From a virus, in the IMG/VR virus record IMGVR_UViG_3300030108_001831, positions 1 to 38,392 of that record: a stretch of DNA of 38,392 bases, one strand, 5' to 3'. Position 1 is the stretch's first letter. Every line of letters begins with the position of its first letter. Under the pieces are notes generated by a model. It saw only the letters and a list, made by a program, of their open reading frames with translations. It was not told the origin of the DNA and did no database searches. Made by a program: the position numbers and the translations under genes. Below, piece after piece: positions 4,525-35,766 of the stretch.

Positions 4525-4553
4525 ATACTTATATATTAATAGGTATTTGTCAA
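4525..4553 (-). promoter_or_regulatory. Promoter candidate for the SSB-like gene
   Basis: Minus-strand TTGACA (4553-4548) is a perfect -35 and sits inside the last codons of the methyltransferase gene. An AT-rich TATATAAGTAT stretch follows where a -10 should lie, though its exact register is unclear. It could raise SSB expression above the rest of the operon. Confidence 0.5.
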
Positions 4554-5822
4554 CCTATTAAACAAGGTAACAAAAGCTTTTGTTGCTGTCTGTGGCACTA
4601 CTCCATTTCCGAGAAGTCTAAGTCTGTCCACCCTACTTGAAGACCCATTAGTTGTTCTACCCAACTTGGGTTTAACTCTAGGCTCTTCCCATTCGTGTTG
4701 TTCTTGATTTGGTCTCCTTGGTATCCTTTCTTGCATCCATATATCATTTTTGGTAGTGACATATCTCGGAATGTCTTTGTTCCTGGTGTGTCCTTCCAAT
4801 CTCTCGCTGTTGGTGTCGGAAATGTTTCTACTGCATCCCTTAACTTGGCCCCAAACGTCTGATTGCTTTTGTGACGTTTGCTCTTGAATGTCCCATCTTC
4901 CACTATCGTTTCTATCCGACCCCCCTCTGCATCCGATGTCCTCGGTGTCGGATAATTCATCGCATCCTTGTATGCTTGAACTGATTCCGGATTTACTTGT
5001 TCTCTCAGATTGCTTGGCTTCTCTCTGTTCTTTCTGATTCCTTGGGCCTGCTTCATTGAAGCATTGTAGTCCTTTGGTGGTAACATATCCATTGTGTTTG
5101 GCGTGGCCCAATTCTTGTCGTTCACTTCTGCTTGTTGTGCTAGACTTAAAGAATTTCTTTTCAGTTGGCTTGCATCCATTTGTCTTGTTATCTGACTCGT
5201 TGTTGGAGTTGACCAATTCTTTGCTTGTTGTGCTAGTGGTATTCCTCCCTTCCCATTCGGTCTTGTCGAGTCTGTTGCACTCGCTCTCGGAGTAGCCCAT
5301 GATGAAGACTCTTTTTCTCTGATGTGGGAAGCCGACTTCACTCGCTGAGAATACTCCTGCCGTTGCTCTGTAACCCAATCTTTCCAAGTCTTTAAGCACA
5401 TAGTGGAGAACTGATTCTCCTTCTGCTGTTTTGCTTGAGATAATTCCTTCAACGTTTTCGAGGAAAACAATTCTTGGTCGACATTCTTCGATTCCTCTAC
5501 TGAAGTGTGGATAGAGATGTCTAGGGTCTTCAACTCCTTTTTTATGTCCTGCACAACTGAAGGGTTGACAAGGGAAGCCTCCTGATAAGATGTCCACTCT
5601 TCCACAAAACTCTTTGTATGGGAAGGTCTTAACATCCGAGTAGATAGGTGCTGCATCCAACTGTTCGCTTTCCATCTTCGAAACCAAGTTTGCGATTGCG
5701 AAGGCTTCGATCTCCACATAAGCGATTGTTCGCAAGCTTGGTAAAACTCGTTCAAGTCCGATTCCGATTCCATCATAACCTGCACAGAGTGATAGGTGTG
5801 TAATTGCTTTGGTAGTATCCAC
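4536..5822 (-). CDS. DNA (cytosine-5) methyltransferase
   Basis: 428 residues from GTG at 5822. Motif I (LCAGYDGIGIGLE, residues 12-24), motif IV with catalytic Cys85 (GGFPCQPFS), motif VI (LENVEG, Glu122), motif VIII (QRKRVF, about 169-173) and the C-terminal LLGNGVVPQTA (motif X region) are all intact. Residues about 180-370, the target-recognition region, are S/T/N/Q/R/E-rich, with five phrases like LSDTED, LVNSNNE and ISDTNSE. GTG is preferred to an ATG at 5870 because GGGAGGAG lies just upstream and the longer start lies inside helicase coding. The enzyme would methylate phage or host DNA. Nearly all of it is co-encoded with another frame. Confidence 0.93.
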   Translation of the reverse strand: MDTTKAITHLSLCAGYDGIGIGLERVLPSLRTIAYVEIEAFAIANLVSKMESEQLDAAPIYSDVKTFPYKEFCGRVDILSGGFPCQPFSCAGHKKGVEDPRHLYPHFSRGIEECRPRIVFLENVEGIISSKTAEGESVLHYVLKDLERLGYRATAGVFSASEVGFPHQRKRVFIMGYSESECNRLDKTEWEGRNTTSTTSKELVNSNNESDNKTNGCKPTEKKFFKSSTTSRSERQELGHAKHNGYVTTKGLQCFNEAGPRNQKEQREAKQSERTSKSGISSSIQGCDELSDTEDIGCRGGSDRNDSGRWDIQEQTSQKQSDVWGQVKGCSRNISDTNSERLEGHTRNKDIPRYVTTKNDIWMQERIPRRPNQEQHEWEEPRVKPKLGRTTNGSSSRVDRLRLLGNGVVPQTATKAFVTLFNRLTNTY

Positions 5823-5824
5823 AT
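4598..5824 (-). CDS. Overlapping-frame protein with TP repeats, inside the methyltransferase gene
   Basis: A 408-codon frame, one register off the methyltransferase over essentially the same DNA, starting at ATG 5824 with GGGAGGAG upstream and overlapping the helicase stop (TAATG). Five repeats [WYF]-x-TP occur at residues 176, 204, 239, 291 and 335 (WATPRAS, NWSTPTTS, NWATPNT, YPTPRTSD, FPTPTARDW). The end has LNPSWVEQLMGLQVGWTDL. I recall this TP-x-x-RD plus NPxWVExLMGxPxGWT signature from proteins annotated near phage methyltransferases; their function is unknown. So long a second frame in an AT-rich genome is very unlikely by chance. It may modulate the methyltransferase (inference). Confidence 0.7.
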   Translation of the reverse strand: MWILPKQLHTYHSVQVMMESESDLNEFYQACEQSLMWRSKPSQSQTWFRRWKANSWMQHLSTRMLRPSHTKSFVEEWTSYQEASLVNPSVVQDIKKELKTLDISIHTSVEESKNVDQELFSSKTLKELSQAKQQKENQFSTMCLKTWKDWVTEQRQEYSQRVKSASHIREKESSSWATPRASATDSTRPNGKGGIPLAQQAKNWSTPTTSQITRQMDASQLKRNSLSLAQQAEVNDKNWATPNTMDMLPPKDYNASMKQAQGIRKNREKPSNLREQVNPESVQAYKDAMNYPTPRTSDAEGGRIETIVEDGTFKSKRHKSNQTFGAKLRDAVETFPTPTARDWKDTPGTKTFRDMSLPKMIYGCKKGYQGDQIKNNTNGKSLELNPSWVEQLMGLQVGWTDLDFSEME

Positions 5825-5833
5825 TACTCCTCC
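5820..5833 (-). promoter_or_regulatory. Shared ribosome-binding site and ATGTG double start
   Basis: Minus-strand GGGAGGAGTAATGTG combines four signals: the last codons and TAA stop of the helicase, a strong Shine-Dalgarno, ATG (5824) for the TP-repeat frame and GTG (5822) for the methyltransferase. The two start codons overlap by one base and could compete for the same ribosome. Confidence 0.75.
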
Positions 5834-7095
5834 CAACTTTTGTGTTTAAATGTTTGTGTTGATTTATCAAAATCTAAAACTGCAACTGGAGATAATCCAT
5901 TACGATTCTTCTGCCATTTACATACAACTGTATCATCACTCGTTTCGTGATTCTGATGAATTGTTTTACCATTTACATCAATACCTTCATAAGGAACTGT
6001 ATGTAAATAAAGTATTACATCACATAAGTTTTCTATATTTCTACTATAAGCTACAAGTCCTTCAGCAGATGGATGTGCTAATAAAAATATTGGTATCTTA
6101 ATATCATTTCGTAAATCTACTAACTGTTGAATAAAGTAATCATACATAGCAGTTCTGTTTGTAAAGTTTCTACCACCATCATTTATACAAAGAAGATTAT
6201 CAATCATAATACAATCAGCACCATTTTTCTTTTCTGATAGGGCCCATGCTCGTATTTCCATAATATTCATAGACCCATCTCTAATATTTAAATTAAGGTC
6301 TTTTAGTTTTTGTGAAGCATTTAAAACTTTTTCTCTTTCATTATCGGTCATAAATCCTCTAGTCCTAATGGTGTACGTATTAACTTGACCAAGATGTGCT
6401 ATAAATCTACCTACTAATTCTTGCTTAATCATTTCAATAGATGCAAAGCTACACTTCATACCCTTGCTATGTAAGTGACATATATATTGTAGAAGCCAGG
6501 CTGTCTTACCTGTACTTCTAGGCGCATGGATAATACATACTTCACTACTTAATCTTGATAATTTAAAATTCCAATCTTCAAAGGGCCATTCTAAATGACC
6601 TGTGTTTCCTTCTTCTGCATCTTTAACCCATTCATCACATATCTTATCCATACTGCTATCTTGATTATTTATTGAGCTTCTTACTAAACTACTCATAACT
6701 CTATCTGCTGAGCTTTGCCCATCGTATGCTTTTATTAATCCTGATTCATACACTTCGATTTCTTTTCTTAAATCATATAATTCTAATAATCTATCTCTGT
6801 ATGATTTACTATGACTAGGTACAATCGTGCTATCTTGTAGTTTTAATAAATATTCTTCACCACCACATTGATGTAATATTTTTTTATCATTTAAATAATT
6901 TCTAACAGTTAATGCATCCATGTCCATATTTTGTACATACATTTCTCTTAATGCATCCCATAAATATTTATGTCTTTCTGTATAAAAATGTTTGCTTGAT
7001 AATGATATACAATTTTTCATTCTTGATGGATCAAGTAATACTGACCCTATAACACCTGATTCGCTTGCTAAACAATTAGGTTTTTGTTTACTCAT
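5824..7095 (-). CDS. DnaB-type replicative helicase
   Basis: A 423-residue protein. The N-terminal domain resembles DnaB_N (ESGVIGSVLLDPSRM, then HKYLWDALREMY and LTVRNYLNDKK). The RecA-like domain has Walker A near residue 190 (APRSTGKTAW), Walker B (CIMIDNLL), a motif-3-like FLLAHPS and an arginine-finger-like KWQKNRNG. It unwinds DNA ahead of the polymerase. No primase domain is present, so host DnaG is probably used. The start overlaps the initiator-like gene (ATGA) and the stop overlaps the ATG of the TP-repeat frame. Confidence 0.92.
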   Translation of the reverse strand: MSKQKPNCLASESGVIGSVLLDPSRMKNCISLSSKHFYTERHKYLWDALREMYVQNMDMDALTVRNYLNDKKILHQCGGEEYLLKLQDSTIVPSHSKSYRDRLLELYDLRKEIEVYESGLIKAYDGQSSADRVMSSLVRSSINNQDSSMDKICDEWVKDAEEGNTGHLEWPFEDWNFKLSRLSSEVCIIHAPRSTGKTAWLLQYICHLHSKGMKCSFASIEMIKQELVGRFIAHLGQVNTYTIRTRGFMTDNEREKVLNASQKLKDLNLNIRDGSMNIMEIRAWALSEKKNGADCIMIDNLLCINDGGRNFTNRTAMYDYFIQQLVDLRNDIKIPIFLLAHPSAEGLVAYSRNIENLCDVILYLHTVPYEGIDVNGKTIHQNHETSDDTVVCKWQKNRNGLSPVAVLDFDKSTQTFKHKSWEE

Positions 7096-11555: not shown

Positions 11556-11570
11556 TAGCTATCTACCCAT

Positions 11571-14016: not shown

Positions 14017-14206
14017 ACCTATTGAGCCACCAAAGATTCAAACGCCTATGGAGGCTATAGACCCAATAGATGTTACAATGACAGCTACAGATTATCAAAG
14101 AGCTGCAACTGCTGATGATATGACCATGGCAAGCACGATACTTACAAAGCCAAAAAGAAAGAAAAAAGAACAAACCAATACCTTAATGGGTGGTTATGGA
14201 AGCTAG
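13994..14206 (+). CDS. Small basic portal-adjacent protein
   Basis: A 70-residue protein starting MGSRRKARPIEPPKIQTPME, after TTTAGGAGAATAT. It is Pro and Lys rich and probably disordered, and ends with ASTILTKPKRKKKEQ and TLMGGYGS. Small proteins with a Pro-rich start and a TILT ... TLLGG-type end occur just upstream of podovirus portals, and I place it with those from memory. It overlaps both neighbours. The role may be in portal or connector assembly. Confidence 0.68.
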   Translation: MGSRRKARPIEPPKIQTPMEAIDPIDVTMTATDYQRAATADDMTMASTILTKPKRKKKEQTNTLMGGYGS

Positions 14207-15839
14207 AGATATAATAAAAAAATATGATTCTATGAGTTCCCATGTTATTGGTAATTGGTTGAACTTATGGCAAGAGTGTGCAGATTGGTGTTATCAATCA
14301 AATGATAATATAAATCGTATTCGTGTAGCTGGTCAAGAAAAGCCACCACAACGTATGATAGATACTTGTATAGAAGCAAACAATAATTTTGCTAGTGGTT
14401 TCTTTTCACATATGTTCCCACCAAATACTGTATGGGCTAGATACAGACATCCTGATCCAAGAACTATGCAAAACGAAGATGTTGCTTATTATTTTGAGCA
14501 AGTAAGTCGTATAGCACATAGAGTTCTTATTGGCTCTAACTTTGCACAAGAAGAGTTTCAAGCTTTATTATCTATGGGATGTTTTGGAACGAATTGCTTA
14601 ACTTTAGAAGAAGATGATAAATCAGTTATAAGATTTAAAAATCTAGTAATATCTAATGTTAGAATAGATGAAAATCATTTAGGTGAAGTAGATACTATAG
14701 CTAGAGAATATAAATTAAATATTCGCCAGGCTATACAAAAATTTGGAATAGAAGCATTAAAAACTGCAAACTTTAATGATATTGATGCTATATTAAAAAA
14801 TAATCCAAACAAAAAATATACATTTATACAATGTGTACAACCTAGGTTAGATTATAATCCTAAAGGTTTAAAAGCTACAGATAAACCATTTGCTTCTTAT
14901 CATGTATGCAAAGAAACAAACTCTATAGTTTTAGAATCAGGTTTTGATTATAACCCATATAAAGTATCTAGATTTGTTGTAGGTAACGAAGAAATATATG
15001 GTCGATCACCTATGAGTATGGTGTTAGGTACTGCAAGAAGAACTAATGTTGTTTATAGATCACTTATGGTTTCAGCAGAACAACACTCTAATCCACAATG
15101 GCTTATACCTGATGACGATAGTGTTAGTGGTATGAGTAATAGAGCAGGCTCGTTTATTAGATGGCGTGCTACTAACCCTAATGGCAAACCTGAAAGACTA
15201 GCACCTAATGGGAATCCACAACTTGCTAACGAAATGTATAAACAACATGATGATCAAATTAAACGTATGTTTTATAATCATTTATTTAGACCATTAGATC
15301 AATATAGAAACATGACTGCTACTGAAGTTAATGAAAGAATGACTACAGACTTAATGACATTAGCGCCATTTGTTTCTCGCTACATAGAAGAACACGTTAC
15401 TCCACTTATGGAACACGTTTACTATATTTTAGCGAAGAAAAAATTATTACCACCATTACCTGAAATATTAAGAAATGACCCACAATATGAAATAGATTAT
15501 GTAGGTAGATTGTCAATGGCAACAAAAGCATTTGAAACTATGGGCGCAATACAAACTTTAAGAATGTTTGGTGAAGTATCACAACTAGACCCAAGAATGT
15601 TACAATCATTAGATAATGTCGATAAAGATAAATTCTTTAGAGAGATATGGTATGCTAATAGTTCTAGCATGAATGCATTAAAAGACCCAAGTGTTGTTAG
15701 AGATGAAAGAGAACAACAAGCTGCTGCTATGGCAGAACAACAATCTATACAACAAGCACCTGCTGTAGCTGATGCAATACAAAAATTAAGTGGTGGAGTT
15801 GACGAAACTAGTATTCTTAATAATCAATTAGGTGAATAA
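14196..15839 (+). CDS. Portal (T7-type head-tail connector)
   Basis: 547 residues from ATG at 14196; another ATG at 14190 is two codons upstream. The protein has the T7 gp8 look: N-terminal WLNLWQECADWCYQ, ASGFFSHMFPPNTVWARY, FQALLSMGCFGTNCLTLEE, YGRSPMSMVLGTARRTN, MTATEVNERMTTDLMTLAP, and a Gln/Ala-rich C-terminus (EREQQAAAMAEQQ). Twelve copies would form the ring through which DNA is packaged and ejected. It sits between the terminase and scaffold genes as expected. Confidence 0.9.
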   Translation: MEARDIIKKYDSMSSHVIGNWLNLWQECADWCYQSNDNINRIRVAGQEKPPQRMIDTCIEANNNFASGFFSHMFPPNTVWARYRHPDPRTMQNEDVAYYFEQVSRIAHRVLIGSNFAQEEFQALLSMGCFGTNCLTLEEDDKSVIRFKNLVISNVRIDENHLGEVDTIAREYKLNIRQAIQKFGIEALKTANFNDIDAILKNNPNKKYTFIQCVQPRLDYNPKGLKATDKPFASYHVCKETNSIVLESGFDYNPYKVSRFVVGNEEIYGRSPMSMVLGTARRTNVVYRSLMVSAEQHSNPQWLIPDDDSVSGMSNRAGSFIRWRATNPNGKPERLAPNGNPQLANEMYKQHDDQIKRMFYNHLFRPLDQYRNMTATEVNERMTTDLMTLAPFVSRYIEEHVTPLMEHVYYILAKKKLLPPLPEILRNDPQYEIDYVGRLSMATKAFETMGAIQTLRMFGEVSQLDPRMLQSLDNVDKDKFFREIWYANSSSMNALKDPSVVRDEREQQAAAMAEQQSIQQAPAVADAIQKLSGGVDETSILNNQLGE

Positions 15840-23300: not shown

Positions 23301-24063
23301 ACAACCTGAAACAATTATATGGATGATAAGAAATGATGGTCAACTTATTGGTCTTACATATGAAAAAGAAACAAAAACATTTGGATGGCATAGACATACG
23401 TTTGATGGTGCAACTGCTGAATCAGTAACAGTATTACCTACATCTACTGGAGAAGACTCTATTTATATTGTATTAAAGAAAACATCAGACAATAAAAGAT
23501 GTCTTGTTAAAATGGATGATCGTGATTGGGGGTCTACATACACTACAGAATATCCTGGATTAGATTTATATAAAGAATACACAAATCATTCTAGTGCAAC
23601 TGTAAGTGGATTAGATCATTTAGAAGGAAAATCTGTCATAGCTAAAGTTAATGGGGTTACACAAACTAAAACAGTTAGTAGTAATGCTATTACATTAGAT
23701 TCTACTCCATCTAACGCTACTGTTTATGTAGGATTATCATACACATCAACACTAGCACCATTATATTTAGGATTAGAATATAAGAGTGGAACAACTAGAG
23801 GAGATAAAGTAGGTGTTAAATCTGCAATGATTAGATTTGATGAAACATTATCTGCTAAAGTAGGACAAACAGAAACAGCATCAGATTTACAAACAATTGA
23901 GTTTGCAAGTACTTCTTCATTGAATAGTGAAGATGTTCCATGTTATTTAAGCAATGCAAATGAATTTTTACAAACTGTATATGTTATCCAAGATGAGCCA
24001 CAACCATGTACAGTATTAGGAATGGTTATTAATTTAGATATAGGAAGAGGAAATACAAGCTAA
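20302..24063 (+). CDS. Tail tubular protein B (T7 gp12-like nozzle) with large insertion
   Basis: 1,253 residues from GTG, after TAGGAGATATT; T7 gp12 is about 800. The N-terminus (INAFNSGEVAPSTYARYDQ, LQTGGADRRPGTKYLADL) and later FPHSIAIYESRLCFGGT, WLSKSNDLNNF, LIIGTSANEWALGSG and RQGTKLREWIQ are classic for the family. Residues about 496-799 hold repeated beta-propeller-like blades (GACWDADNDRLLVLTDE, DIAWYDGHIYTWG, GLLYILNNNADEINIFDTS, GIGYNPQTQTFYTVED), placed inside a W-x-x-G-x-x-Y / HTSxxF-type module. It should form the tail nozzle; the propeller may contact the host surface. Confidence 0.9.
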   Translation: MAKQVINAFNSGEVAPSTYARYDQALYNTACLKMENFVPLQTGGADRRPGTKYLADLDTNKSVAYSFIFNNSNTYVLVFSNLELKIYDKDGTFIEVFTTTYLEAELYDLKLTQSADVVFIAHPNHPVQKLSRIAVDDFNLEELTYSFPPTIDLNEDLTFSVSENLKSETITHVTITNSGASAVFTVASHSFVIGSKVNVINVTTSSHSSDFLKTNGTWEITATTSTTITCTIHDDSVTARSIQAVADTSATIREFRTSIPANTTITLTSSQDFFTSDHVSSEFVLRQKRDNANSLVDSTKMYPLANASKTTAAGIISRNGYSDSLNASLSNWSIETLGFWRGKVIIQRSLDNGVTYEDYVVVGDTSGLFITDGVGDPSLEDGAAALDFPRKNFTFSSTEPEPANSLLRVVTSFFSKIYENVDAPGGDKFGFILKTESPYILAPCTINTVTSATQATAILSSPLIDAVNDYESNTGNCKWVTGKKYFKHDKVKFSGTLTELTDAVPEQLVKNDGSTPLAGVKGACWDADNDRLLVLTDESSTFKVYAFSGTSLAHDGTDITGNKTADATVITLATANASSSYDTYAPSDIAWYDGHIYTWGTMFPQGAHKNSSSGSQMNRKQLSKFNVDGSHESVIAGNDEKNFSLRRGVNQTHGLGFDGSHFYAAYSFFDEGGSDVVYSLKIRKYNTSGSTIATYTKATQTVSGDVDTAAFSNGASSTNFDWNTEYLDITAKNGLLYILNNNADEINIFDTSCNFLTQAVNLSTDDYRGIGYNPQTQTFYTVEDDGFAQGYSVADTVTSYYQCQVEHTSSNFATALDLGYWVERFPNKVEFFESAFNKIKGFPHSIAIYESRLCFGGTDSNPNTIWLSKSNDLNNFAVGVNANDSMRLTINSNTIDEIRWLCPSTSLIIGTSANEWALGSGSDQLAITPTQLNIKRQSNYGSNKIQGELVNASILFFMRQGTKLREWIQQNTANVFLASDLASYAEQATDGGILQMAVQTQPETIIWMIRNDGQLIGLTYEKETKTFGWHRHTFDGATAESVTVLPTSTGEDSIYIVLKKTSDNKRCLVKMDDRDWGSTYTTEYPGLDLYKEYTNHSSATVSGLDHLEGKSVIAKVNGVTQTKTVSSNAITLDSTPSNATVYVGLSYTSTLAPLYLGLEYKSGTTRGDKVGVKSAMIRFDETLSAKVGQTETASDLQTIEFASTSSLNSEDVPCYLSNANEFLQTVYVIQDEPQPCTVLGMVINLDIGRGNTS

Positions 24064-24719
24064 TGTCGATAGGAATAGGAGCAATAGTTAGTGCAGGTGC
24101 AAGTATACTTGGTGGTGCTATACAGTCTAGAGCGCAAAGAGCAGCTGGTAAAGCCCAATTAGAACAAGCTAAGTATAATAAACAAGTGTACGATAATCGT
24201 GCTAAAGCAATAGATATAGCTTCTAGTGCTGAACAAAGACGTTTGGGTAAAGAACAAAGAAAACAAGCTGCTGCAACAAAAGTAGCGTTTGCTAAATCAG
24301 GCGCACAAATATCATCAGGTACACCTCTTATAGCACAATTAGATCAATTTAGTGACATGGTATATGATTTAAATAATTTTAAAAGAACACAAGCATTAAA
24401 ATCAGCTGAACAAACGCAAGCAGGCGAAATGACTTTATATAGAGGAAAGGTTGCTAATCAACAAGCTAGAGCGCAAGCTAGAGCTACTATGATGTCTAGT
24501 GTGCTAACAGGTATAGGACAATTAGCAGGTGGATATACACCTAAAGGCCCTACATTTGATACTAAAGATAGTTCTTTTTTAGATAGTAGAACACCAAGAA
24601 TACAAAATTTAACATCATATGATTTAGGGCCTATGGGTGATTTTGGATTTGGAGGTAGTAATAATTTATTTGCTGATCCTACAATACCAAACCCAATGGG
24701 TAAGTATAATTTTAATTAG
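24063..24719 (+). CDS. Internal virion protein B-like (T7 gp14 position)
   Basis: A 218-residue protein whose start overlaps the tail gene stop (TAATG). The N-terminal GIGAIVSAGASILGGAI is hydrophobic and glycine rich, able to cross a membrane. It is followed by a long Ala/Gln/Arg/Lys helix (AQRAAGKAQLEQAKYNKQV, RRLGKEQRKQAAATKVAFA) and a Gly/Pro-rich tail. This layout matches T7 gp14-like ejection proteins, which extend the channel into the host envelope. Confidence 0.78.
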   Translation: MSIGIGAIVSAGASILGGAIQSRAQRAAGKAQLEQAKYNKQVYDNRAKAIDIASSAEQRRLGKEQRKQAAATKVAFAKSGAQISSGTPLIAQLDQFSDMVYDLNNFKRTQALKSAEQTQAGEMTLYRGKVANQQARAQARATMMSSVLTGIGQLAGGYTPKGPTFDTKDSSFLDSRTPRIQNLTSYDLGPMGDFGFGGSNNLFADPTIPNPMGKYNFN

Positions 24720-24727
24720 GAAATAAA

Positions 24728-26545
24728 ATGCCAAAGATACCATTATATGAACAACAAACTAGAGTAAGTGGAGAAACATCATCACCACTATTAGATAGGT
24801 CTGCTGAAATACAATCTATACAACAAATAGCGAATACGTATGCAAAAGGTGTTGGTAATCTTGCTAGTGGTATTGGTGATATGATTGATAACTATGAAAG
24901 ATTAGAAGAACAATCAGCTGTAGCAGATGCTAATAGAGAGATGATAGATTTTAAATTAGAAATTGCTAAAGAAAGAGATGAAGTTTTAAAAAGAGATGAT
25001 GTTAATTTAGCAAACTATGAAGAAAAATATTTGTTACCAAAAATAAATGAGTTTAAACAAAAATTAAATAACAAAGGATATTCTCCAAAAGCAATGCAAA
25101 GATTAGTACCAGTTATTGATACTGATCTTGGAGATTTAAGAAACGAAGAACAGTTAACTCAAATTAAAATTAAACAACAACAACACGTTTCTACTATTAC
25201 TAATGAAGCTAATACTTTTTTAAGAACATCAAAAAGACAAGCAGGTGTTGATATTTTAAATGAAGCTGTTGCAGATGGATATATACTTCAATCAGATGCT
25301 ACTAAATTAATTAATGATGCAGATAAAGATTATTTTACGTTAAAATCAGATAAAGCAAAAACAATGAAAGACCTTGAAAATTTAGGTGTTGAAATAAAAA
25401 AAATAAATTTTGAAGGAAAAGAAGTAGTTATTAATCAAGATGAAGTAGACAGATGGAAAAATATGGATCAATCTATAAAAGATAATATTCTTGCAAAAAG
25501 ATCAAAAGAAATACAAGAACAATATAATAAAGACACAGGTAATCTGTTTAATACTATAAAAAGTCAAGCACAAGCGTTAACAATATCTGAACAAGAAATA
25601 AGAAATGCAATAGGTGGTGATGGTAAACCACTTCATCCTGATTTAATAAATACATTAATAAATTTTAGAGATGGTGCAGTTAGTGAACAAAAGAAAAACC
25701 TAAGAGGTAGTGCAAAAACAGGTGATAGTTTTCAAAAACTAGAAGCAGATATAGCAAAATTATTTAAAGGTGAATCAAATGATCCTAAAAAAGATTTTGA
25801 TGATATAATGAAAAGAATTATTGAGTCTAACTTTATAAGTGATGGTTTACAAGAAGATTTAATTGATGGATTTGTTGATATAATGAAAACAGAACAAGGT
25901 TATAATATTTTTGTATTAGGTCAAAAAGGAGTTCCTGTATATGGAGGTGAAGCAGAAACCAAAGCCTGGTTAAAGTATTGGGAAGTATATGATAATGCAA
26001 CTACTTATATGAGAGATATAGATAAACCTGAAGCATTTCAAGATGCTAGAAAAGCCTTTAATGAATTTATTAAAGATTCTAGAGAAGCGGCTCTTGGTAT
26101 GAAAGCACCAGAATTTGAAACATCTGCAACTACAAAGATAAGGTCTAAACCAAGTAAAGCAAAAGTAAAATCAGAACAAGAAGCTATAAGAGCAAGAAGT
26201 AGTGCATTAAAACAAGTATCTGAAAATCAGTTAGAATTTGATAGTAAAGGATTTCTAATAATGTCACCTAAAAATGATGCTATAATTAATTCTTTTATTA
26301 ATAAACAATTTGCGTCTTATAGAGAAGCTCAAGCAGAATCATATTTTAATACAGCTCTTAATGAATCTGTGCCTATGGGAAGAAAAACAACATTTAGTCA
26401 ATATTATTCTTTACCAACAGAAAAAGATAAATTAGGAATTTCATTAGAAAAAGCAAATGAACTTAGATCATTAGGAATTTTAGAAGACTTCGATGCTTTA
26501 ACTGCTGAACAAAAAGAAGACTTACCATTTGATTTTAGAGGATAA
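24728..26545 (+). CDS. Internal virion protein C-like (T7 gp15 position)
   Basis: A 605-residue, largely helical protein without strong hydrophobic segments. It starts MPKIPLYEQQTRVSGETSSP, and the body is rich in charged helices (EYLLPKINEFKQKL-like repeats, KNMDQSIKDNILAKR). It has Gly-rich turns near the middle and ends QKEDLPFDFRG. The order after the gp14-like protein and before the giant protein matches the internal core proteins of T7-type phages. Assignment rests on context and helical architecture. Confidence 0.75.
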   Translation: MPKIPLYEQQTRVSGETSSPLLDRSAEIQSIQQIANTYAKGVGNLASGIGDMIDNYERLEEQSAVADANREMIDFKLEIAKERDEVLKRDDVNLANYEEKYLLPKINEFKQKLNNKGYSPKAMQRLVPVIDTDLGDLRNEEQLTQIKIKQQQHVSTITNEANTFLRTSKRQAGVDILNEAVADGYILQSDATKLINDADKDYFTLKSDKAKTMKDLENLGVEIKKINFEGKEVVINQDEVDRWKNMDQSIKDNILAKRSKEIQEQYNKDTGNLFNTIKSQAQALTISEQEIRNAIGGDGKPLHPDLINTLINFRDGAVSEQKKNLRGSAKTGDSFQKLEADIAKLFKGESNDPKKDFDDIMKRIIESNFISDGLQEDLIDGFVDIMKTEQGYNIFVLGQKGVPVYGGEAETKAWLKYWEVYDNATTYMRDIDKPEAFQDARKAFNEFIKDSREAALGMKAPEFETSATTKIRSKPSKAKVKSEQEAIRARSSALKQVSENQLEFDSKGFLIMSPKNDAIINSFINKQFASYREAQAESYFNTALNESVPMGRKTTFSQYYSLPTEKDKLGISLEKANELRSLGILEDFDALTAEQKEDLPFDFRG

Positions 26546-26550: not shown

Positions 26551-29500
26551 ATGAAAATGAACGATAAGCAGTATACTCTGCAAGAAACTACAGTTCGTGA
26601 TATAGGAGTAAATCCTTTTTTCGAAAATTTAGATGTAGATTTTGTACCTAGTTTAAAAGAAAAATCTGATCGAGAATACTTTAGAAGTGATCAAGGTAAA
26701 CTTACTCAAGCTCGCATTAAAACTAGAAATATGTGGCGAGAAACTTATGGAGGAAAAAGTTTTTATAGAGATTATAATAGAGAAATGCGTGATGATGAAG
26801 TTGATGCTGCTCTTGTTCAATATTTTAAATTAAATCCTGATACTCCTATTGATTACTATAAAATTCAAGAAGATTTAAGAAGGCAAAGAGATTTATATTA
26901 CACCGGTGATTTTGAAACCTTAACTGGTGGAGAAATGTTTAGAGGAGCTTTAGGTGCATTTATGGAGTGGGGTGATAATGTTAAAAGAGAAGCCTTGTCT
27001 CTTGGAATTGATTTAATGAGCACTGGTCAAGCACTTCGTACAAAACAAATAGGTCAATCTATTCCTATGGCTACTTTTCAACAAATGCCTTTTCCTGGTA
27101 CTACTGTTCCTAAAGAAAAAAGAGAAGAAGAAGCAAAAAATATAAAAGATGAAGCAACTTTCTTAAAATTAAAGGTTGATCAACTAGAAGGGTTATTAGA
27201 AAAATTTCCTAGTTTTAAAGATGATTTAGAAGAATTAAGAGCAAAAGCAGGTGATGAAGAAGCAAATTGGTTTTTATCATCTTTTGCTGCTACTTTAGCA
27301 AATGCACCTAACTTAGTAGCAGGAGGATTAGGCGCAAGATTATTTGGTAAAAGTGGATGGATTTTTTCTATGGCTGGTATGTATGCTCAAGAAAAAGATT
27401 CAGCTTTTCAGTATTTTAAAGAAATATATGATATATCTTCATCAACAACTTTAGAAGAAATTAAAAAAGACCCTACGCTTTCAGAAAGATATAATCAAGC
27501 TACTAAGCTTGCTAGAGCATATGGATTACTTTCAGCAGGTATAGAGTATATCCAAACAGGTGGTTTTTTAAGAATGGCAGGTATTAAAAAAGGTGCTAGA
27601 CCAAAAACTTTATCTGAATTATTTAAAAATAAACCTACTAGAGAATTTATTACTAATTTACAAGGTCATATAAAAAGAACTACAGGTATGGCAATTGAAA
27701 ATATTGTAGAAGAAGTATCACAAGGTATTTTATATAATCAATTTGCTAACATGGCAATTACTGATGCTTTTTTAAATTATGATATAGATAAACGTGATGA
27801 AATGACACCACTTTTTAAAGATTGGGAAGAAAATTCAAGAAGTGCTTTGCAGTTAACAACCATACTTGCTCCTGTAGGTGCTTTTAAAAATTTTATGGTG
27901 CAAAAAAACTATAGGTCTAAAACAGTTCAAAGATTAAAACAACAAGGTTTTACTCATATGGAAGCATCAGAGTTTGCATTAGATCTAGCTAATGCTGCAG
28001 GTAATAAAGAAGAATTTAAAAAAGTTGCTGCAAGAATACAAAGTCAATTTGAATCTAAAGAAGCTAGTAAAGTAATATTAGAAAAAAATAAATTAAGACA
28101 AACTTTAGAAGATGATTCTGGTCTTAAAACTATGGATGGTAGTGTTTTTACTGATCAAGAGTTTGATGCTTTAGCTACAACTTATTCTACTGAAGAGCTT
28201 ATTAAAATGATTCCTAATAAAGAATATCAAGATTTATTTATTGCTGCTGTAAATGGAGATATGGAAGCTAGAATAGAATATAATAAATCAATTCAAAATA
28301 TTGTTAATATAAATAATAACAAAAATAAAAAAAGAAAAGAAACAGAAATACCACCAAGAATACAAAAAGTAATTACAAAAATAGAAGATGGAGAGCTTGA
28401 TAAAAGTCTTGATATTGAAGAAGGTGAAACTATTGAACAAGCAAGAGAAAAAGAAATAAATAGAATTTTAGAAAAAGAAGGATTAAAACCTAGAGAACAA
28501 GAAACGACTGAAGAAGCTGCTGAAGAAACTACAGAAGAAACAATACCTGATCAGCCAACAGAAGTAATGCCTGAAGATACATCTTATAATGATGTAAAAA
28601 CAGAAGCTAAAAAATTAGGTATTCCTATAAAAGGTAAAAAAGCCGAACTAATAAATAAAATAAACAGAGAACGTGCTAAACGTGGTGCAGAACAACAAGC
28701 TAAACAATTTGAAGATACACCTACTAAATATCAAGAAAAATTTCAACGCAAGATGGCTCAAGTTATGCAAAACTCAACTAGAGCATTACGCAAAATAGCA
28801 CCTACTGTAAAAATATTATATGCTAAATCTGAAGAAGATTATTTAAGAATAGTAGGAAGAAGCTCTAGAGGTGCATATGTAGCAAGTGAAAATACTGTTT
28901 ATTTAAATCCTTCAAAAGCAACTCAAGGAACTGTAGTACATGAAACTGTACACGCTATACTACAATATAAACTTGGTAATGATAAAAACATACAAGCAGT
29001 AACAAATGTATTACTTAATGATATTTTAAAAGATTCTATTTCTTTTGCAGCAAAAATAAGAATTAGAAGCTACATGGATAAATATATAAAACAATTAAAT
29101 TTTACTGAAGAAGCAGCCTCTGAAGAAGGTGTATCAGAGTTAGCAGCAATACTTCTTGATAATATTAATTATGTTCAACCATCTTTAAAAGCAAGAATAA
29201 TTGATTTTGTATCTAGAATATTTGGAATAGATTTTAAAAATGATGAAATGAGAGCAATAAAAATGTTACAAGCTATTGCTTCTAAAACTACTAAAGGTGA
29301 AATGATTTTAGAATCAGATGTATCTATATTAGATGATATAGCTAAATCAACAATACCTGGATATTCTAATGAAAGTCAAACAGCAGAAGCTAACAGTAAA
29401 TTTCAATTAAGTCATACTGATCCTATAACAGGTTTTACTTATGAATATGACCTTCCTGATGGTGAGTTTCAAGAATTAGAAGATAATGGTAATGTTACAA

Positions 29501-32500
29501 AAGATCAAAGTATAACTGATTTTGTAGATAAATTTATGGCTGTTACTTATCCTGATAGTATGTTTACAGGAACAATTACAAATGAAAATGGAGATATATT
29601 AGTTGAAGGATCAGGTGGTATAAACTTTGTTTTAAAATTTCATAAAGGTAATTATGTGTGGGCTGCAGGAAAAAAATCTCTTGCTCAGGGATTATTGAAT
29701 AGATTAAATGAATCATTTGAAGATAATAATGGAGTAGCATATTTAGCATTAGCATTAGGAAGTAGAGAAAAACTTTTAAGTAACACACAAGCAAATAAAG
29801 GTGTAATAAATATTATACAAGATTTTATTAACAATAAAAAAATATCAGTAACTCAAGAACAGTTTGATAAAATATTAAAAGATGTTTATGGAACAAATAA
29901 TATTTTAGAAATATATGAAAAGCTATTACCAACAAATACCGAATTTTCACAAAGAAAAGCATTTGCATTAAAGATAGCAGGAGAAATTGCAAAAATAGCA
30001 AAAGATTCAGAAATAGAAGCAATTTTAGAAACTGCTAATATTCCTCAAACACCTTTAAAATTTCAAGAAAAAGCAAAACCCAAAGAACAATCAAAAGCTA
30101 AATTAGTAAGATATTTTGTTGAAGTAATGACAGAGCCTTTTCTTACTAATACAGGAATAACAGATGAAGATCAAATGATAGATAAAAAAGAAATAGGTCA
30201 AATATATGCTGTTATTGAAATAAGAAAAGGAGCAACTAAGGCTGCACTTTCAATACAAGATGTTACAAATCAACCTACAGTAAAACAAAATGAATCGTAT
30301 CCTTATATTATTCAAGGAGATCAAGATATTAAAACTAAACTTCATATATTAAAAGATCGTTATCCTATACATGAAGTATTTGTAGGTAAAGATGGTGAAG
30401 TAATAGAAAAAAATTTACCACAAAAACAAGTTCCTAATTTTGGTATATCTAAATCAACACTTAGAGTAGTAAATCCTAAATTTCAATTAGAAGATACACA
30501 AGATCAATATCAATTAAATTTTGATGTAATACCACAAGTTAAAGATGCATTAAGACAATACTTTGATGGTAAAATTTCATACGAAGAGTTTTTAAGAATA
30601 CAAGATAAGTTTGATCCTATAAGGAGATTTGAAGTTCTTCCTGAATTACCAACTAATCAAGAAATGAAAGATGTATTAGATGAAGGTAAAAAAGAAAAAG
30701 TAGGCATAAAGCCAAAAGATGGAGAACAAGTTTCATTACGTTTAGATATACCTGCTTATACAAGAAAAGACAAAGATGGTAAAAGAATTGGTAAATATGT
30801 AGTTACTATTCATAAAAAAGGAATACAAGGAGTAATAGGATATACATCAACTGGTAGGGCCAAAAATGTAAGAATGACTTCACCAAAATTAAGAACTGCT
30901 CAAATAGCTCTTAAAGAAACTCCTAAAGGGCCTGTGTCTGCTATTAATGGACAATATGTTGAAGCTACAGATGAACAAAATTATAAAGATGCTCAAGAGT
31001 TAATTAATGACCCAAATTGGGTACAAATAGGATTTAATCCATTTAGACGTTCTTTCTTTTATGTTAGAGAAGGTGCATTAAGAGGAAATCCTGTTGTAGC
31101 TGCTGATGAAGTAATTCAAATTGGTGGATTAGTTTTAGCTAAAAATATAACAATGGCTTCGGTTGAAAACTTTAAGTTTAACGAAAAACAAAAAGAACAA
31201 TTAGAAATTTTAAGAGATGATGCTAAATTCCAATTAGATGAAACAAAACCTAAAATGTTTTTTGGTATGGCTGGTATAGGCACTATAGAAATGGCATTTG
31301 CTAATACCGAGTTTAGAAACTTGTTTAATATAAAACCTGCTGAATATAATCAATCTATTGTTGATGTTCATAATGCTATACATGGTACAGGCTATGCTTC
31401 ACAAGACTTTATGGACCTTGATCCTAATGAGTTTAAAGATTATGTATATTGGCACGCATCATTTCCTTGCCAATGTTTTAGTGCATCTAATCCAAATGGA
31501 TTAAAAGCTAATGGTGAGCCTAAACAAGGTAATTTAACAAAAGCTGATTTTGATAAAGAAATGCAGTTAGCAAAACATGGTGCTAAAATTATTACTACAT
31601 CTAAACCATTAAATGTAACAATAGAAAACGTACCTAATTATCAAGGATCAGATCAATATGCTGTATTAAGAAAAGCATTACAAGATGCTGGATATACAAT
31701 AAGAGAAGAAGTTGTAAAGGCACAAGATTATGGTGCTATATCAAGTAGAAAAAGATTTATTGTACAAGCTACGTTAAGAAAAGATAAAGATGGTAATCCT
31801 GTTTTACCACCTGTTCCTGAACAACAAGGTTTTGGTGATTGGTATAAAGCAATAGAGAAGTTTATAAAAGATGCACCTCATTATGATACACTACAAGAAA
31901 AAGTAAAAACTAAACCAGCTAAATACATTCAAGAGTTACTTGAAAAAATAGACAGAAAACATAGAGATGCTCGCAATAAAGATATTATCTTTACTGAAGA
32001 TATTGCATATATAGCTACAGGAGATGAAAGTAATTTTTCACCACAAGGTTTACCAGGGCCTGCAATACAAGCAGGATTAAGATCAGATAGAGATATGTCT
32101 AAAGGCTCTAAAAAGATTCCAAAACTTTTACTACCTGTAAGAAAACTAGTACAAGAACAAGGTGTAAATGCTGTTGCTGAAATGTATGGTGTTCATCCTA
32201 GTTTAGTAAAAGAAGTATATGACTCACCATTCCCTTTTATTATTAAAAGATTAAGTCAACAAATGTTATTAGCATATATGGGATTAGACCCTAATTTAAA
32301 TTTAGGATTAGATAAACTTACACCAAGTCAAATAACACAATTACAAATACTAAAAGCTGGATTAGGTAACGGAGTACATGAAAAAACAACTATGTCACAT
32401 TTAAAACCTATGATGCAAAACTTTGATAATGCACCTAAATTTCAATTATCTGATGATGAGATTGATGCTTTATTAAATCAAATAGATAAAGAAATAGAAG

Positions 32501-35500
32501 CAGAAGTAAACAAAGAATACGATTTAGCTGCTAAAGGTGCAGAAAAAATAGGAGAACAAGATTATACATCTGTAGATGAGTTATATGGAGACCTTGTTGA
32601 TTTAGAAGAAGAAGAAGAATTAGAAGGTAAAACAAGATTAACTTTAAGAGATGCTGCTAGATTATTTGATAGTTTTAATTTAGGTACTTTTTCAAAAGAA
32701 AAACAAGTTAATACATTTACAGGGTTTGCTAAAGCAGCAGATATAAATGCATCTATAGAAGATTTATTATCATTAGCAGATTTAGTCTTAACAGGCGACA
32801 CTCCAATACTAACAGATATTCAACACTATCAAATGATATTAGGTGTTACTCAATTAAAAAATGAATTAGAAGAAATAAGAAACTCTGAAGAAACAGGAAC
32901 AATAATAAATTTAGATGCTGATACTAGAGGATCATATGAAACAAAATTAGAACAAATGGAAAAATTAGTTCGTGCAGACACAGCATCAGGTAGTCGTACA
33001 GGATCAGCATTAAGAGCTAGGTCGGTAGCAGCAAATAATGATTATTCATATTATGGTGTTATAAGAAGAGCTACTAAAATGAAACGTGGTATGCCTTTAA
33101 CTAAAGAAGAAATTTCTAAACTAGCAGAAGTTCAAGCTAAATATGAAAAAACTAGAAGAGAAGTTAATAAATTAAGAAGTAAGATTGAAAAGTTAACAAA
33201 CGATGAAGATATATCATCAGCACAAAGTTTCTTTGATCAAGTGTTAGTAGAAAAAGAAAAATTTCCTAAAGGTAAAATAAACAAACTAATAAAAGAAATT
33301 AAACAAACTCTTAAAAATAAAGGTTATAATTTAGAAAGTAGTGGTAAGTTTCAGTTAGGTTTTGGTATAGATGCTAAATTAGCTAAAGATATAAGAGCTT
33401 ATGCTAAGTTATTAATTTTAGAAGCAGATGTAAAAACTTTAAATGAAGTAGTTGCTTTAATAAAATCTGATCCTGAATTTATGGATGTTTCTGATGCTGA
33501 TATATATGGCTCAATATCTGGAAGAATACAAAGAGTACCTCGTACAAAATCAGAAGCACAAAAAAGATTACAAGCTCTTACATTACAAGCTGATTTACAA
33601 GTGCAAATAAACAATGCATTAGTAGGAGTATTTGATCCTAAACGTGCTACTAAACCACCATTAGAAGAAACTAAAGATTTAAGAAAGAAACTTAATAAAC
33701 TAAAAGAACTTGCACATGATGCTGCAACAGAAGATGAAAGAGCAGATAAAATATTAACACAAGTTCGTAACATAGAAGAAATGATAGATGGTTTATATAG
33801 ACCAATAAAAAAACCAACTAAAATAAAATCTGATAAAATACAAGCAGCATTAGATAAGTTATATACTGCTAGGGCAGAGTTAAGAGCGCAAGATAGATTA
33901 TTATTATTACAAACTATTTTAGAATATGGTGAGCCACCTAAATTTACTAGACAAAAACGTGACCCACAATCTGATAGATTAGAAAAGTTAAGAACAGACA
34001 TTAAGTTATTAGAAAAACAAATACGAGAACGTAAAAAAGTAGAAGCTGATAAAGAAAGACAAAAAAGAATTAAGGCTGAACAAGAACAAAAACTACAAGA
34101 TTTAAGTAAACAAATATTAGGATGGTATAGAGATAATGTAGGGCCTGCTTCTAAACCTGAATTAAATGAAACACAAAAAGGTATTAAAGAAGCTAGAAGA
34201 TTACAAAAACAACAAGATAGAATAGGAGAACTTGTTGAAATAATAGCTACAGGTAAACTGCCACCTAAAAATAAAAAAGTTGAAATAGCTGATCCTATGG
34301 GCTTTTTAAAAACTATAGATACTTTAAAAGAAGAATTAAAAAATCAAGAGTGGTATAGACAAATACAACAAAATAAATACGAAGAAAAACGTATAGAACA
34401 AGTAAAACAAAAAATAAAAGAACAAGAAGAGCTTATAAAATCTGGAGACTTTACTGATTATCTAACACCTAAAGAAAAGAAAGAAATAGATAATCCTCAA
34501 TTAAAAGCATTGTTATTACAACAAGCAACAAATACTAGAATAATTCGTAAAACAATAAATGAGTTAAGACCAAGAACTAGAATGGAATTAGCAGGTGATA
34601 TAGCTAGTTTACCTCGTGCATTTATGGCAACTGCTGATATGTCAGGAACATTTAGACAAGCATTTTTAATGGGTGTTAGAGACCCAAAAGCGTTTGCAAA
34701 AGCATTTAAGTATGCTGCTAAAGCTGCTGTTGATCCAAAGTTTGCTGAAGAAGTTATGTTTATTTTAGAAAGTGATACTAATGCAGCAAGAAGATTAGAA
34801 TCAGGTTTATTCTTTTCAAATCTTGATACTGGTATGATTGATTCTGAAGAATCATTTAGTTCTAATATGTTACAAAAACTTTATAAAATACCTGGTCTAG
34901 GTAAGCCATTATCTGTTGTTATGGGCGCATCTGAAAGAAATATGGTAGTAATGTTAAATGTATTAAGAGCAGCTGCTTTTGATAAATATTGTGAAGCAGT
35001 TCCTAACGCTACTTCTAACGAGTTAAAAACTTTTGCTCATTTTATAAATACAATGAGTGGTCGTGGTGATTTAGGAAAACTTGAGCCTGCAGCAGATGGT
35101 TTATCTTATTTATTTTTCTCACCTAGATTTGCTGCATCAAGATTAATGGTTATACCAGAATCTGTTGGTATTGGTGTTAGTCCACTTGTTAAGAAAGATA
35201 AATTAGGTCAATTAAAAACAAAACAAGATAGAGAAGGTGACGTTCGATTAGCAAAAGAAGTTGCTAAATATTGGGGATCATTAGCAGTAACAACAGCTAT
35301 AGTATTTGGATTAGCTGCTTTAGCAGGAGCTGAAGTAGGAGATGAGCCTGATGAGCCTGATTTTGGTAAATTAATTTTTGGTAATATGAGATTAGATATT
35401 TTTGCTGGTGTTGGTCAGCCTATGAGATTGTTAGCTAAAGCTTTAGATAGTGCATATAAAACATCTACAGGACAAGAGGTAAAGCTTGATTTATGGAAAG

Positions 35501-35766
35501 AAACACAAAATACATTAATTAAATATAAAGTAACTCCTTGGGTATCAGGTGTTATTGAATTACTTCAAGGTAAAGATTTTGTATCAAGACAAGATAAAAG
35601 TGCTATGAAAGTTCTTCTTCAAAGATTAGCACCAATAACATTTTCAAACTTATATGAAAATATATATGAAAGAGATGCAGAAGGATATCAAATATTTACA
35701 GAGTTTGCAGCAGAGTTCTTTGGACTATCTGTCTATACTCAGACAAGACGTGGTGGTAGTTTATAG
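26551..35766 (+). CDS. Giant polyvalent internal virion protein: SAP, zincin and C5-methyltransferase domains
   Basis: 3,071 residues, a quarter of the genome, after AGAGGATAATTTTT. In order: helical N-terminal part (FMEWGDNVKREALSLGID); SAP-like DNA-binding motif about 677-709; zinc peptidase motif HETVH at 797-801 with a downstream Glu-rich segment; undefined domains about 950-1310; a polyvalent-associated domain about 1310-1558 (ADEVIQIGGLVLAKN); C5-methyltransferase about 1568-1960 with FGMAGIGTIEM, Cys1640 in FPCQCFS, Glu1692 in IENV and SRKRF at 1732-1736; coiled coils; and a C-terminal phage domain (about 2671-3071) with a hydrophobic segment near 2906-2930. KFQL recurs at 950, 1310, 1559, 1963 and 2266. 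It takes the T7 gp16 position and is likely ejected with DNA. Confidence 0.88.
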   Translation: MKMNDKQYTLQETTVRDIGVNPFFENLDVDFVPSLKEKSDREYFRSDQGKLTQARIKTRNMWRETYGGKSFYRDYNREMRDDEVDAALVQYFKLNPDTPIDYYKIQEDLRRQRDLYYTGDFETLTGGEMFRGALGAFMEWGDNVKREALSLGIDLMSTGQALRTKQIGQSIPMATFQQMPFPGTTVPKEKREEEAKNIKDEATFLKLKVDQLEGLLEKFPSFKDDLEELRAKAGDEEANWFLSSFAATLANAPNLVAGGLGARLFGKSGWIFSMAGMYAQEKDSAFQYFKEIYDISSSTTLEEIKKDPTLSERYNQATKLARAYGLLSAGIEYIQTGGFLRMAGIKKGARPKTLSELFKNKPTREFITNLQGHIKRTTGMAIENIVEEVSQGILYNQFANMAITDAFLNYDIDKRDEMTPLFKDWEENSRSALQLTTILAPVGAFKNFMVQKNYRSKTVQRLKQQGFTHMEASEFALDLANAAGNKEEFKKVAARIQSQFESKEASKVILEKNKLRQTLEDDSGLKTMDGSVFTDQEFDALATTYSTEELIKMIPNKEYQDLFIAAVNGDMEARIEYNKSIQNIVNINNNKNKKRKETEIPPRIQKVITKIEDGELDKSLDIEEGETIEQAREKEINRILEKEGLKPREQETTEEAAEETTEETIPDQPTEVMPEDTSYNDVKTEAKKLGIPIKGKKAELINKINRERAKRGAEQQAKQFEDTPTKYQEKFQRKMAQVMQNSTRALRKIAPTVKILYAKSEEDYLRIVGRSSRGAYVASENTVYLNPSKATQGTVVHETVHAILQYKLGNDKNIQAVTNVLLNDILKDSISFAAKIRIRSYMDKYIKQLNFTEEAASEEGVSELAAILLDNINYVQPSLKARIIDFVSRIFGIDFKNDEMRAIKMLQAIASKTTKGEMILESDVSILDDIAKSTIPGYSNESQTAEANSKFQLSHTDPITGFTYEYDLPDGEFQELEDNGNVTKDQSITDFVDKFMAVTYPDSMFTGTITNENGDILVEGSGGINFVLKFHKGNYVWAAGKKSLAQGLLNRLNESFEDNNGVAYLALALGSREKLLSNTQANKGVINIIQDFINNKKISVTQEQFDKILKDVYGTNNILEIYEKLLPTNTEFSQRKAFALKIAGEIAKIAKDSEIEAILETANIPQTPLKFQEKAKPKEQSKAKLVRYFVEVMTEPFLTNTGITDEDQMIDKKEIGQIYAVIEIRKGATKAALSIQDVTNQPTVKQNESYPYIIQGDQDIKTKLHILKDRYPIHEVFVGKDGEVIEKNLPQKQVPNFGISKSTLRVVNPKFQLEDTQDQYQLNFDVIPQVKDALRQYFDGKISYEEFLRIQDKFDPIRRFEVLPELPTNQEMKDVLDEGKKEKVGIKPKDGEQVSLRLDIPAYTRKDKDGKRIGKYVVTIHKKGIQGVIGYTSTGRAKNVRMTSPKLRTAQIALKETPKGPVSAINGQYVEATDEQNYKDAQELINDPNWVQIGFNPFRRSFFYVREGALRGNPVVAADEVIQIGGLVLAKNITMASVENFKFNEKQKEQLEILRDDAKFQLDETKPKMFFGMAGIGTIEMAFANTEFRNLFNIKPAEYNQSIVDVHNAIHGTGYASQDFMDLDPNEFKDYVYWHASFPCQCFSASNPNGLKANGEPKQGNLTKADFDKEMQLAKHGAKIITTSKPLNVTIENVPNYQGSDQYAVLRKALQDAGYTIREEVVKAQDYGAISSRKRFIVQATLRKDKDGNPVLPPVPEQQGFGDWYKAIEKFIKDAPHYDTLQEKVKTKPAKYIQELLEKIDRKHRDARNKDIIFTEDIAYIATGDESNFSPQGLPGPAIQAGLRSDRDMSKGSKKIPKLLLPVRKLVQEQGVNAVAEMYGVHPSLVKEVYDSPFPFIIKRLSQQMLLAYMGLDPNLNLGLDKLTPSQITQLQILKAGLGNGVHEKTTMSHLKPMMQNFDNAPKFQLSDDEIDALLNQIDKEIEAEVNKEYDLAAKGAEKIGEQDYTSVDELYGDLVDLEEEEELEGKTRLTLRDAARLFDSFNLGTFSKEKQVNTFTGFAKAADINASIEDLLSLADLVLTGDTPILTDIQHYQMILGVTQLKNELEEIRNSEETGTIINLDADTRGSYETKLEQMEKLVRADTASGSRTGSALRARSVAANNDYSYYGVIRRATKMKRGMPLTKEEISKLAEVQAKYEKTRREVNKLRSKIEKLTNDEDISSAQSFFDQVLVEKEKFPKGKINKLIKEIKQTLKNKGYNLESSGKFQLGFGIDAKLAKDIRAYAKLLILEADVKTLNEVVALIKSDPEFMDVSDADIYGSISGRIQRVPRTKSEAQKRLQALTLQADLQVQINNALVGVFDPKRATKPPLEETKDLRKKLNKLKELAHDAATEDERADKILTQVRNIEEMIDGLYRPIKKPTKIKSDKIQAALDKLYTARAELRAQDRLLLLQTILEYGEPPKFTRQKRDPQSDRLEKLRTDIKLLEKQIRERKKVEADKERQKRIKAEQEQKLQDLSKQILGWYRDNVGPASKPELNETQKGIKEARRLQKQQDRIGELVEIIATGKLPPKNKKVEIADPMGFLKTIDTLKEELKNQEWYRQIQQNKYEEKRIEQVKQKIKEQEELIKSGDFTDYLTPKEKKEIDNPQLKALLLQQATNTRIIRKTINELRPRTRMELAGDIASLPRAFMATADMSGTFRQAFLMGVRDPKAFAKAFKYAAKAAVDPKFAEEVMFILESDTNAARRLESGLFFSNLDTGMIDSEESFSSNMLQKLYKIPGLGKPLSVVMGASERNMVVMLNVLRAAAFDKYCEAVPNATSNELKTFAHFINTMSGRGDLGKLEPAADGLSYLFFSPRFAASRLMVIPESVGIGVSPLVKKDKLGQLKTKQDREGDVRLAKEVAKYWGSLAVTTAIVFGLAALAGAEVGDEPDEPDFGKLIFGNMRLDIFAGVGQPMRLLAKALDSAYKTSTGQEVKLDLWKETQNTLIKYKVTPWVSGVIELLQGKDFVSRQDKSAMKVLLQRLAPITFSNLYENIYERDAEGYQIFTEFAAEFFGLSVYTQTRRGGSL

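Follow-up and report, generated by a model that had tools for sequence, protein, structure and literature searches.

Polyvalent proteins, the Dar proteins of phage P1 and the virion RNA polymerase of phage N4 are among the described systems closest to the giant protein analysed here. Polyvalent proteins (Iyer et al. 2017, PMC5512222), as characterised in the available text of that paper, share with it a giant multidomain build, a gene placed among virion genes, a zincin-like domain and a DNA-modifying enzyme. The methyltransferases (MTases) treated in that text are of the adenine type (EcoKI/TaqI-like), whereas the one embedded in our protein is of the C5-cytosine type; neither a cytosine-type MTase nor a linker motif was found in it, the word cytosine occurring in the reference list only. 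In P1 a methylase (the methylase-helicase DarB, alongside DdrB with its zincin) is held in the head, is ejected and protects DNA in cis, and its partner proteins are proteolytically processed, DarA being cut by the prohead protease Pro according to the accessible part of PMC12810830. Our protein would resemble Dar in bringing a methylase in with the particle and in a putative cleavage, but P1 is a myophage whose adenine-type MTase comes with a SWI2/SNF2 helicase, whereas the protein described here has a C5-type MTase and gave no helicase match. The N4 polymerase (gp50) is likewise a giant ejected protein with a zincin region, but it is an RNA polymerase, packaged unprocessed according to the available text of PMC5512222, where our protein has an MTase instead. 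With T7 gp16 and other podophage ejection proteins the resemblance is one of position, behind gp14-like and gp15-position genes, and no sequence similarity to gp16 was found. The literature consulted on virion-carried MTases, phage polyproteins and virion proteomes yielded no precedent beyond the polyvalent and Dar work, and the available text of PMC12707154 describes a methylase in the particle as known mainly from P1 Dar, the mechanism of which is still unclear. Set against these systems, the giant is in our assessment a C5-MTase variant of the polyvalent/Dar-like strategy, to which we attach a polyprotein hypothesis.

Position and kinship of the giant gene

The window (the whole stretch of DNA analysed, a viral record of 38,392 bases) encodes the giant behind terminase, portal, capsid and tail genes, a gp14-like gene and a gene for a 605-residue protein. 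The features concerned are the following.

14190..15839, + strand: portal (head-tail adaptor), phrog_332 E 1.8e-98, used for finding relatives
24063..24719, + strand: gp14-like internal virion protein, phrog_418 E 1.6e-11
24728..26545, + strand: 605-residue protein in the gp15 position, no convincing family match
26551..35766, + strand: giant ORF, ATG start, 3,071 residues, putative ejection/polyvalent protein in the gp16 position, by synteny with cultured phages
28588..28665, + strand: SAP-like segment, residues 680-705, sub-threshold
28738..29385, + strand: zincin-like metallopeptidase region, residues 730-945, HETVH at 797 and EE at 858-859
30490..31215, + strand: module M4, residues 1314-1555, conserved, without a sequence match in the PDB and largely missing from the relative L055
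31237..32436, + strand: embedded C5-cytosine DNA methyltransferase, residues 1563-1962, from Pfam, profile, fold and dN/dS
32449..33336, + strand: module M6, residues 1967-2262, helical in a low-confidence model
33358..35763, + strand: C-terminal region, residues 2270-3071, well conserved, the query for the wider giant family

The initial annotation had placed the giant gene where T7 encodes gp16, and the order gp14-gp15-gp16 is indeed matched at this locus, the giant lying two genes behind the gp14-like gene as in T7-type podophages. Neither a gp16 nor a lytic transglycosylase family match was obtained for the giant protein in PHROGs or Pfam, and the profiles of M4 and of the C-terminal region retrieved no informative chain from the PDB, nor the latter any ejection protein. 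The closest cultured phages by portal and tail include Pelagibacter and Vibrio podophages at ∼25-36% identity, and two of these have a giant ORF at the equivalent position: 2,329 residues with HELGH in Pelagibacter phage Baldr and 2,222 residues with HEFSH and an LPD22 domain (E 4e-13) in Vibrio phage PS25B.1. Such same-position giants with an HExxH motif assign the protein by position to the ejection-protein slot. It probably travels inside the particle and leaves it together with the DNA.

Relatives were collected by a portal scan (49 loci) and PF00145 was sought in 90 records in total, the window included, while scans for embedded MTases added 18 further viral contigs, of which 11 are of the window type, two are L142 and L143, and five (L128-L132) belong to another phage type. 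The giants of these five are of ∼2,200 residues (2,198-2,208 where complete), and in L132, the one whose neighbours were examined, the giant lies between terminase and capsid genes. The giant of L142 (3,483 residues) is preceded by a tail gene (phrog_376) and by two genes at the gp14 and gp15 places; its MTase comes before its HExxH, so the module order differs from that of the window. In a separate alignment of giants, ART-PolyVal was found in two of 18 members other than the window's and an HATPase domain in one, indicating that the slot carries varied effectors. A single scan of bacterial genomes gave 83 pattern stretches, none of which was confirmed as a relative. The modules come and go as blocks: L061-L064 align at both ends with next to nothing in the MTase columns, and L055 is missing most of M4. 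We also observed that the nearest relative, L003, has ∼170 extra residues exactly between the motif K4 (see below) and the MTase, and that in L127 (G049, 11514-12136) the embedded MTase frame is broken by a TAA, through either a broken gene or a sequencing error. In the records G003 (L055/L007) and G004 (L056/L008), ∼98 bases are shared by each record's two non-overlapping pieces, suggesting terminal repeats and complete genomes.

The suggestion that the giant fits the polyvalent concept is borne out by its kin, given the LPD22 and ART-PolyVal domains just described, and by the protein itself, which joins disparate activities in one polypeptide (an MTase and a zincin motif) and is encoded among virion genes. 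Since the window protein contains no curated polyvalent domain (LPD or ART-PolyVal, which are common in the class and not required), its filing there rests on architecture and kin.

An HETVH zinc-peptidase motif had also been proposed, and its residues H797, E798 and H801 as well as E858 and E859 are invariant in 11/11 aligned giants. The AlphaFold model of residues 700-1312 (pLDDT 72.9) gave nothing at E≤0.001 in Foldseek with the zincin region. In VIA the matches of this region are rich in gluzincins (best zincin Z 5.6, none above 8), and residues 2124-2366 of the N4 polymerase align to it with Z 4.8 and 6.2 Å over 170 residues; with every Z below 6 the comparison is suggestive of a zincin fold only. 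The N4 alignment agrees with an HExxH domain placed at residues 2130-2448 of the starting protein in the passage of Iyer et al. on N4-like virion RNA polymerases (PMC5512222). P1 Dar has Pro, whereas no separate protease was recognised among the window genes scanned, the zincin being the sole convincing protease-like domain. The product of 16798-17637 was considered as a prohead protease and rejected: its phrog_458 'protease' match reaches 2.9e-7 only, a better match is functionless, no Pfam family applies, and by sequence it resembles an acidic scaffold. As for the SAP-like motif of the initial annotation, a match exists (E 9.6e-4) but its 19.2 bits fall below the curated cut-off of 23.9; SAP matches at E≤0.05 occur in three of 11 giants, the best at 3.7e-5.

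The embedded C5-cytosine methyltransferase

The C5-MTase domain noted earlier from its motifs I, IV, VI and VIII is recovered by PF00145 at residues 1574-1794 (E 1.6e-17; 64.3 bits against a curated cut-off of 22), with AGIG at 1574, PCQ at 1639 (Cys1640), ENV at 1692 and SRKRF at 1732, and we add a GNGV motif X at 1939. With a profile built from seven embedded relatives, matches were obtained to M.HhaI (E 4.7e-12) and EhMeth (E 1.8e-14) as well as to M.HaeIII and Dnmt2 chains. Absence of a Rossmann MTase fold at residues 1568-1960 had been set beforehand as the outcome that would tell against the domain. Although the AlphaFold model of residues 1306-2268 has low confidence as a whole (mean pLDDT 53.9), it improves over the MTase: the predicted fold retrieves M.HhaI in Foldseek (E 1.2e-11), and VIA places model residues 260-660 (window residues 1565-1965) on M.HhaI 10-327 with Z 19.1 and 4.2 Å, 294/327 residues aligned, so that the fold is present in the model. 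The aligned stretch takes in motif X together with the catalytic and target-recognition parts. Fold and catalytic motifs are thus common to M.HhaI, M.HaeIII and our domain over its full length, and the differences are that ours is a fused module and has SxRxR for QxRxR. On these profile and model comparisons, a complete C5-cytosine methyltransferase, a predicted enzyme, is embedded in the giant. Among cultured phages the window MTase matched 167 records, none covering 80%; the one examined, H2, has a 372-residue ORF, and Mx4, one examined among the matches to the L142 MTase, has a 534-residue ORF.

If the domain were no longer a methylase and served instead as a DNA-binding or base-flipping module in DNA packing or ejection, deviations of its motifs would find an explanation, and motifs I and VIII do deviate (AGIG/FSG; SxRxR). 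PCQ itself is present in 6/9 aligned embedded MTases, with SCT in L059 and VCK in L132 and L128. However, no variation occurs at the catalytic Cys, EN, RxR or GNG in any of the nine, two of which come from another phage type, and dN/dS of the module is 0.30 for window-L003, 0.41 for window-L055 and 0.15 for L057-L058 (simple Nei-Gojobori). The module is under purifying selection in the three pairs tested, and we consider loss of methylase function improbable.

Punctuation of the giant by [KR]xQ motifs

Short motifs of the form KFQL lie at the borders of the modules.

29398..29409, + strand: K1, KFQL at residue 950, in a low-confidence linker of the model
30058..30069, + strand: K2, KFQE at residue 1170, only in the window and its 86% relative, not conserved
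30478..30489, + strand: K3, KFQL at residue 1310, punctuation motif
31225..31236, + strand: K4, KFQL at residue 1559, punctuation motif
32437..32448, + strand: K5, KFQL at residue 1963, punctuation motif
33346..33357, + strand: K6, KFQL at residue 2266, punctuation motif

KFQL occurs five times in the giant against 0.09 expected, a count reached in 0/300 shuffles, and is missing from all 31 other proteins of the window that were tested. Aligned borders in relatives read DKFQL, GKAQL, GKFQL, GKSQL, GKTQL, GRRQK, GRQQK, GKEQR and others, so that other dialects at alignable borders take the forms GK(A/S/T/N)QL, GRxQK and GKEQR. Taken by itself, the broad pattern [KR]xQ[LIMKRP] shows no enrichment in the window (11 against 9.0) or in several other giants; what is enriched is the specific form, KFQL or GKxQ, and its placement at borders. 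Clear punctuation was absent from L062 (G014), and none was seen in Baldr or PS25B.1. In the MTase-less giant L063 we observed a GKEQR/GREQR/GKEQK dialect at residues 915, 1168, 1765 and 2028, together with a DUF7178 domain (E 1.1e-20).

If one recogniser reads all the sites of a protein, they are expected to vary in concert. Identity between motif sites is 0.66 within proteins and 0.51 between them (0/5000 permutations), in a comparison that set aside K2 as not conserved and L003, L125, L076 and L064 as near copies, and that used only K5 and K6 for L061, L063 and L082. With the seven MTase-bearing rows, 0/3000 random column sets match this concerted variation, although it leans on L059, all of whose sites start with R, and shrinks to a difference of 0.026 (41/2000 permutations) when L059 is removed. 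As judged from the aligned residues, KFQL belongs, as one dialect among several, to a [KR]xQ motif that is found at module borders and changes in a coordinated way across the sites of each protein. A shared recogniser is the simplest reading, possibly the giant's own zincin. K1, K2, K4, K5 and K6 lie in model stretches with pLDDT <50, and K3 does so in one of two models, a placement suited to linkers that is tempered by such stretches making up 44% of the second model.

It is also quite possible, at somewhat short of an even chance, that the motifs are docking sites or recombination junctions and that the protein stays whole, as the N4 polymerase with its zincin does when packaged uncut (PMC5512222, available text). 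The coming and going of modules at [KR]xQ borders would suit this. At K4 and K6, however, the codons differ synonymously and the flanks have no common sequence, which indicates selection on the peptide and counters an origin of KFQL in DNA-level recombination linkers; the concerted variation in turn suits one shared recogniser, which a docking partner fits equally with a protease. Cleavage at the motifs would be one of the readings of a constraint that acts on the protein.

A second methyltransferase, restriction sites and timing

The second, early MTase that had been proposed exists.

4536..5870, - strand: standalone C5-methyltransferase, E 1.3e-39, adjoining a DnaB-like helicase gene, with a long repeat-like target-recognition region

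The embedded and standalone MTases differ in type (blastp E 0.06, separate groups) and are therefore not simply one activity present twice; the same comparison rules out the embedded copy as an offshoot of the early one. Among the 31 records that reach 30 kb, a limit picked after the records were seen, a standalone C5-MTase accompanies the embedded one in 7/7 (the window, G003, G004, G006, G010, G018 and the distant G055) and is found in 1/24 without it (G023), for a Fisher value of 3e-6 that is uncorrected for kinship and in which the 24 may include records lacking a complete giant. The 59 shorter records comprise 11 with the embedded MTase only, two with the standalone only, one (G052) with the embedded MTase and an edge fragment, and 45 with neither. 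Between motifs VIII and IX the standalone MTase of the window has ∼200 residues. By eye, this region consists of short repeat-like units whose number and order differ among relatives (L006, L007, L013, L023, L044). Multispecific MTases exist in Bacillus phages such as SPR, and the repeat-like region suggests that the standalone MTase is of this kind, with targets that might be readable from its unit array.

Restriction-site totals were taken over nine main records, six MTase carriers and three MTase-less relatives, with overlaps removed and G008, L025, L076, Baldr and HTVC010P set aside. Observed over expected counts in carriers and in MTase-less relatives, respectively, are 103/104 and 0/65 for CCGG, 157/173 and 25/86 for GGCC, 219/201 and 0/67 for CCNGG, and 96/141 and 2/53 for GGNCC, while the control sites AGCT and TGCA are near expectation in both groups. 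For GCGC they are 85/175 (G004 0/14.3, G010 4/33.7) and 0/96, and for CGCG 3/103 and 0/64; as GCGC is avoided in the carriers G004 and G010 and CGCG in all carriers, protection is partial. Each MTase-less relative by itself, G012 (L028+L061), G014 (L031+L062) and G016 (L036+L063), has zero CCGG, CCNGG, GCGC and CGCG sites, and G016 also has zero GATC (0/78 expected), which hints at a different restriction pressure.

In the portal tree CCGG/CCNGG persist in a 17-row clade with the window and every MTase-detected record of the tree, whereas they are avoided in two clades that lack MTases (8 rows; 3 rows, one of them with too few expected sites to be scored). As the tree needs only three changes between avoiding and keeping, the site contrast is strong within the lineage and rests on few independent events. 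CCGG is also kept where no C5-MTase was detected, in L053, PS25B.1 and the partial outgroup contigs L043-L050. At least one of the two MTases probably protects C-containing sites, and the counts fit either enzyme. GCGC counts lie between half and all of those expected where the embedded MTase is of the window, L057 or L060 type, whereas the site is avoided alongside the divergent types of L056 and L059; that GCGC retention tracks the type of embedded MTase is a lead only.

The keeping of restriction sites in carriers suggests that at least one of the two enzymes protects the phage's own DNA, and so speaks against the idea that the MTase of the virion has its target in host DNA or in the DNA of another phage. 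The early enzyme could already methylate the phage's own genome, and arrival at entry would suit a host target, yet we hold a foreign target to be very improbable.

The initial annotation proposed two rounds of DNA modification, one at entry and another during replication. The second MTase that this calls for is real, but the logic is weakened by the exposure of progeny DNA before packaging to both the early enzyme and the late embedded one, so that a role at entry needs another specificity or another target. Timing is hence the weakest step, as action at entry would pay off only at sites still unmodified or on a different target. The main rival to entry action is a late finishing role, in which the embedded MTase is active, methylates progeny DNA around packaging in the producing cell, and is present in the particle incidentally. 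The giant gene lies among structural genes and is thus probably late, and DNA protected at packaging would explain the kept CCGG and GGCC sites without any action at entry. However, the same genomes already encode an early MTase, and fusion into a 3000-residue protein in the gp16 position is an odd route to a cytosolic enzyme, so that we think this role unlikely.

We lean, by a small margin over even chance, towards the whole scheme of a podophage polyvalent ejection protein that delivers an active C5-MTase. The giant would be made late alongside the other structural proteins, packaged with the gp14- and gp15-position proteins, and delivered along with the DNA into the next host cell. Cutting at the [KR]xQ linkers, by its zincin domain or by some other protease, would free modules, among them an active C5-cytosine methyltransferase that would modify DNA at its own target sequence. 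This modification, together with that by the separate early C5-MTase, would aid restriction evasion. In its boldest version the giant is a phage polyprotein whose own zincin reads a lineage-specific [KR]xQ dialect coevolving across sites and frees exchangeable effectors after delivery, with the C5-MTase obligately paired with a multispecific early C5-MTase in a two-stage epigenetic antirestriction; we treat that version as a doubtful though not negligible prospect.

Relative to the polyvalent and Dar systems, another enzyme class here occupies the podophage ejection-protein slot, and the relatives without the module, in which restriction sites are avoided, provide a natural comparison. Many animal-infecting RNA viruses use site-specifically cut polyproteins. 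The short repeated motifs between the methylating enzyme and the protease-like domain suggest a self-cut toolkit that aids survival of the phage DNA against bacterial defences. If the dialects are cleavage sites, these phages would use such polyproteins as well and their modules would be readable from sequence.
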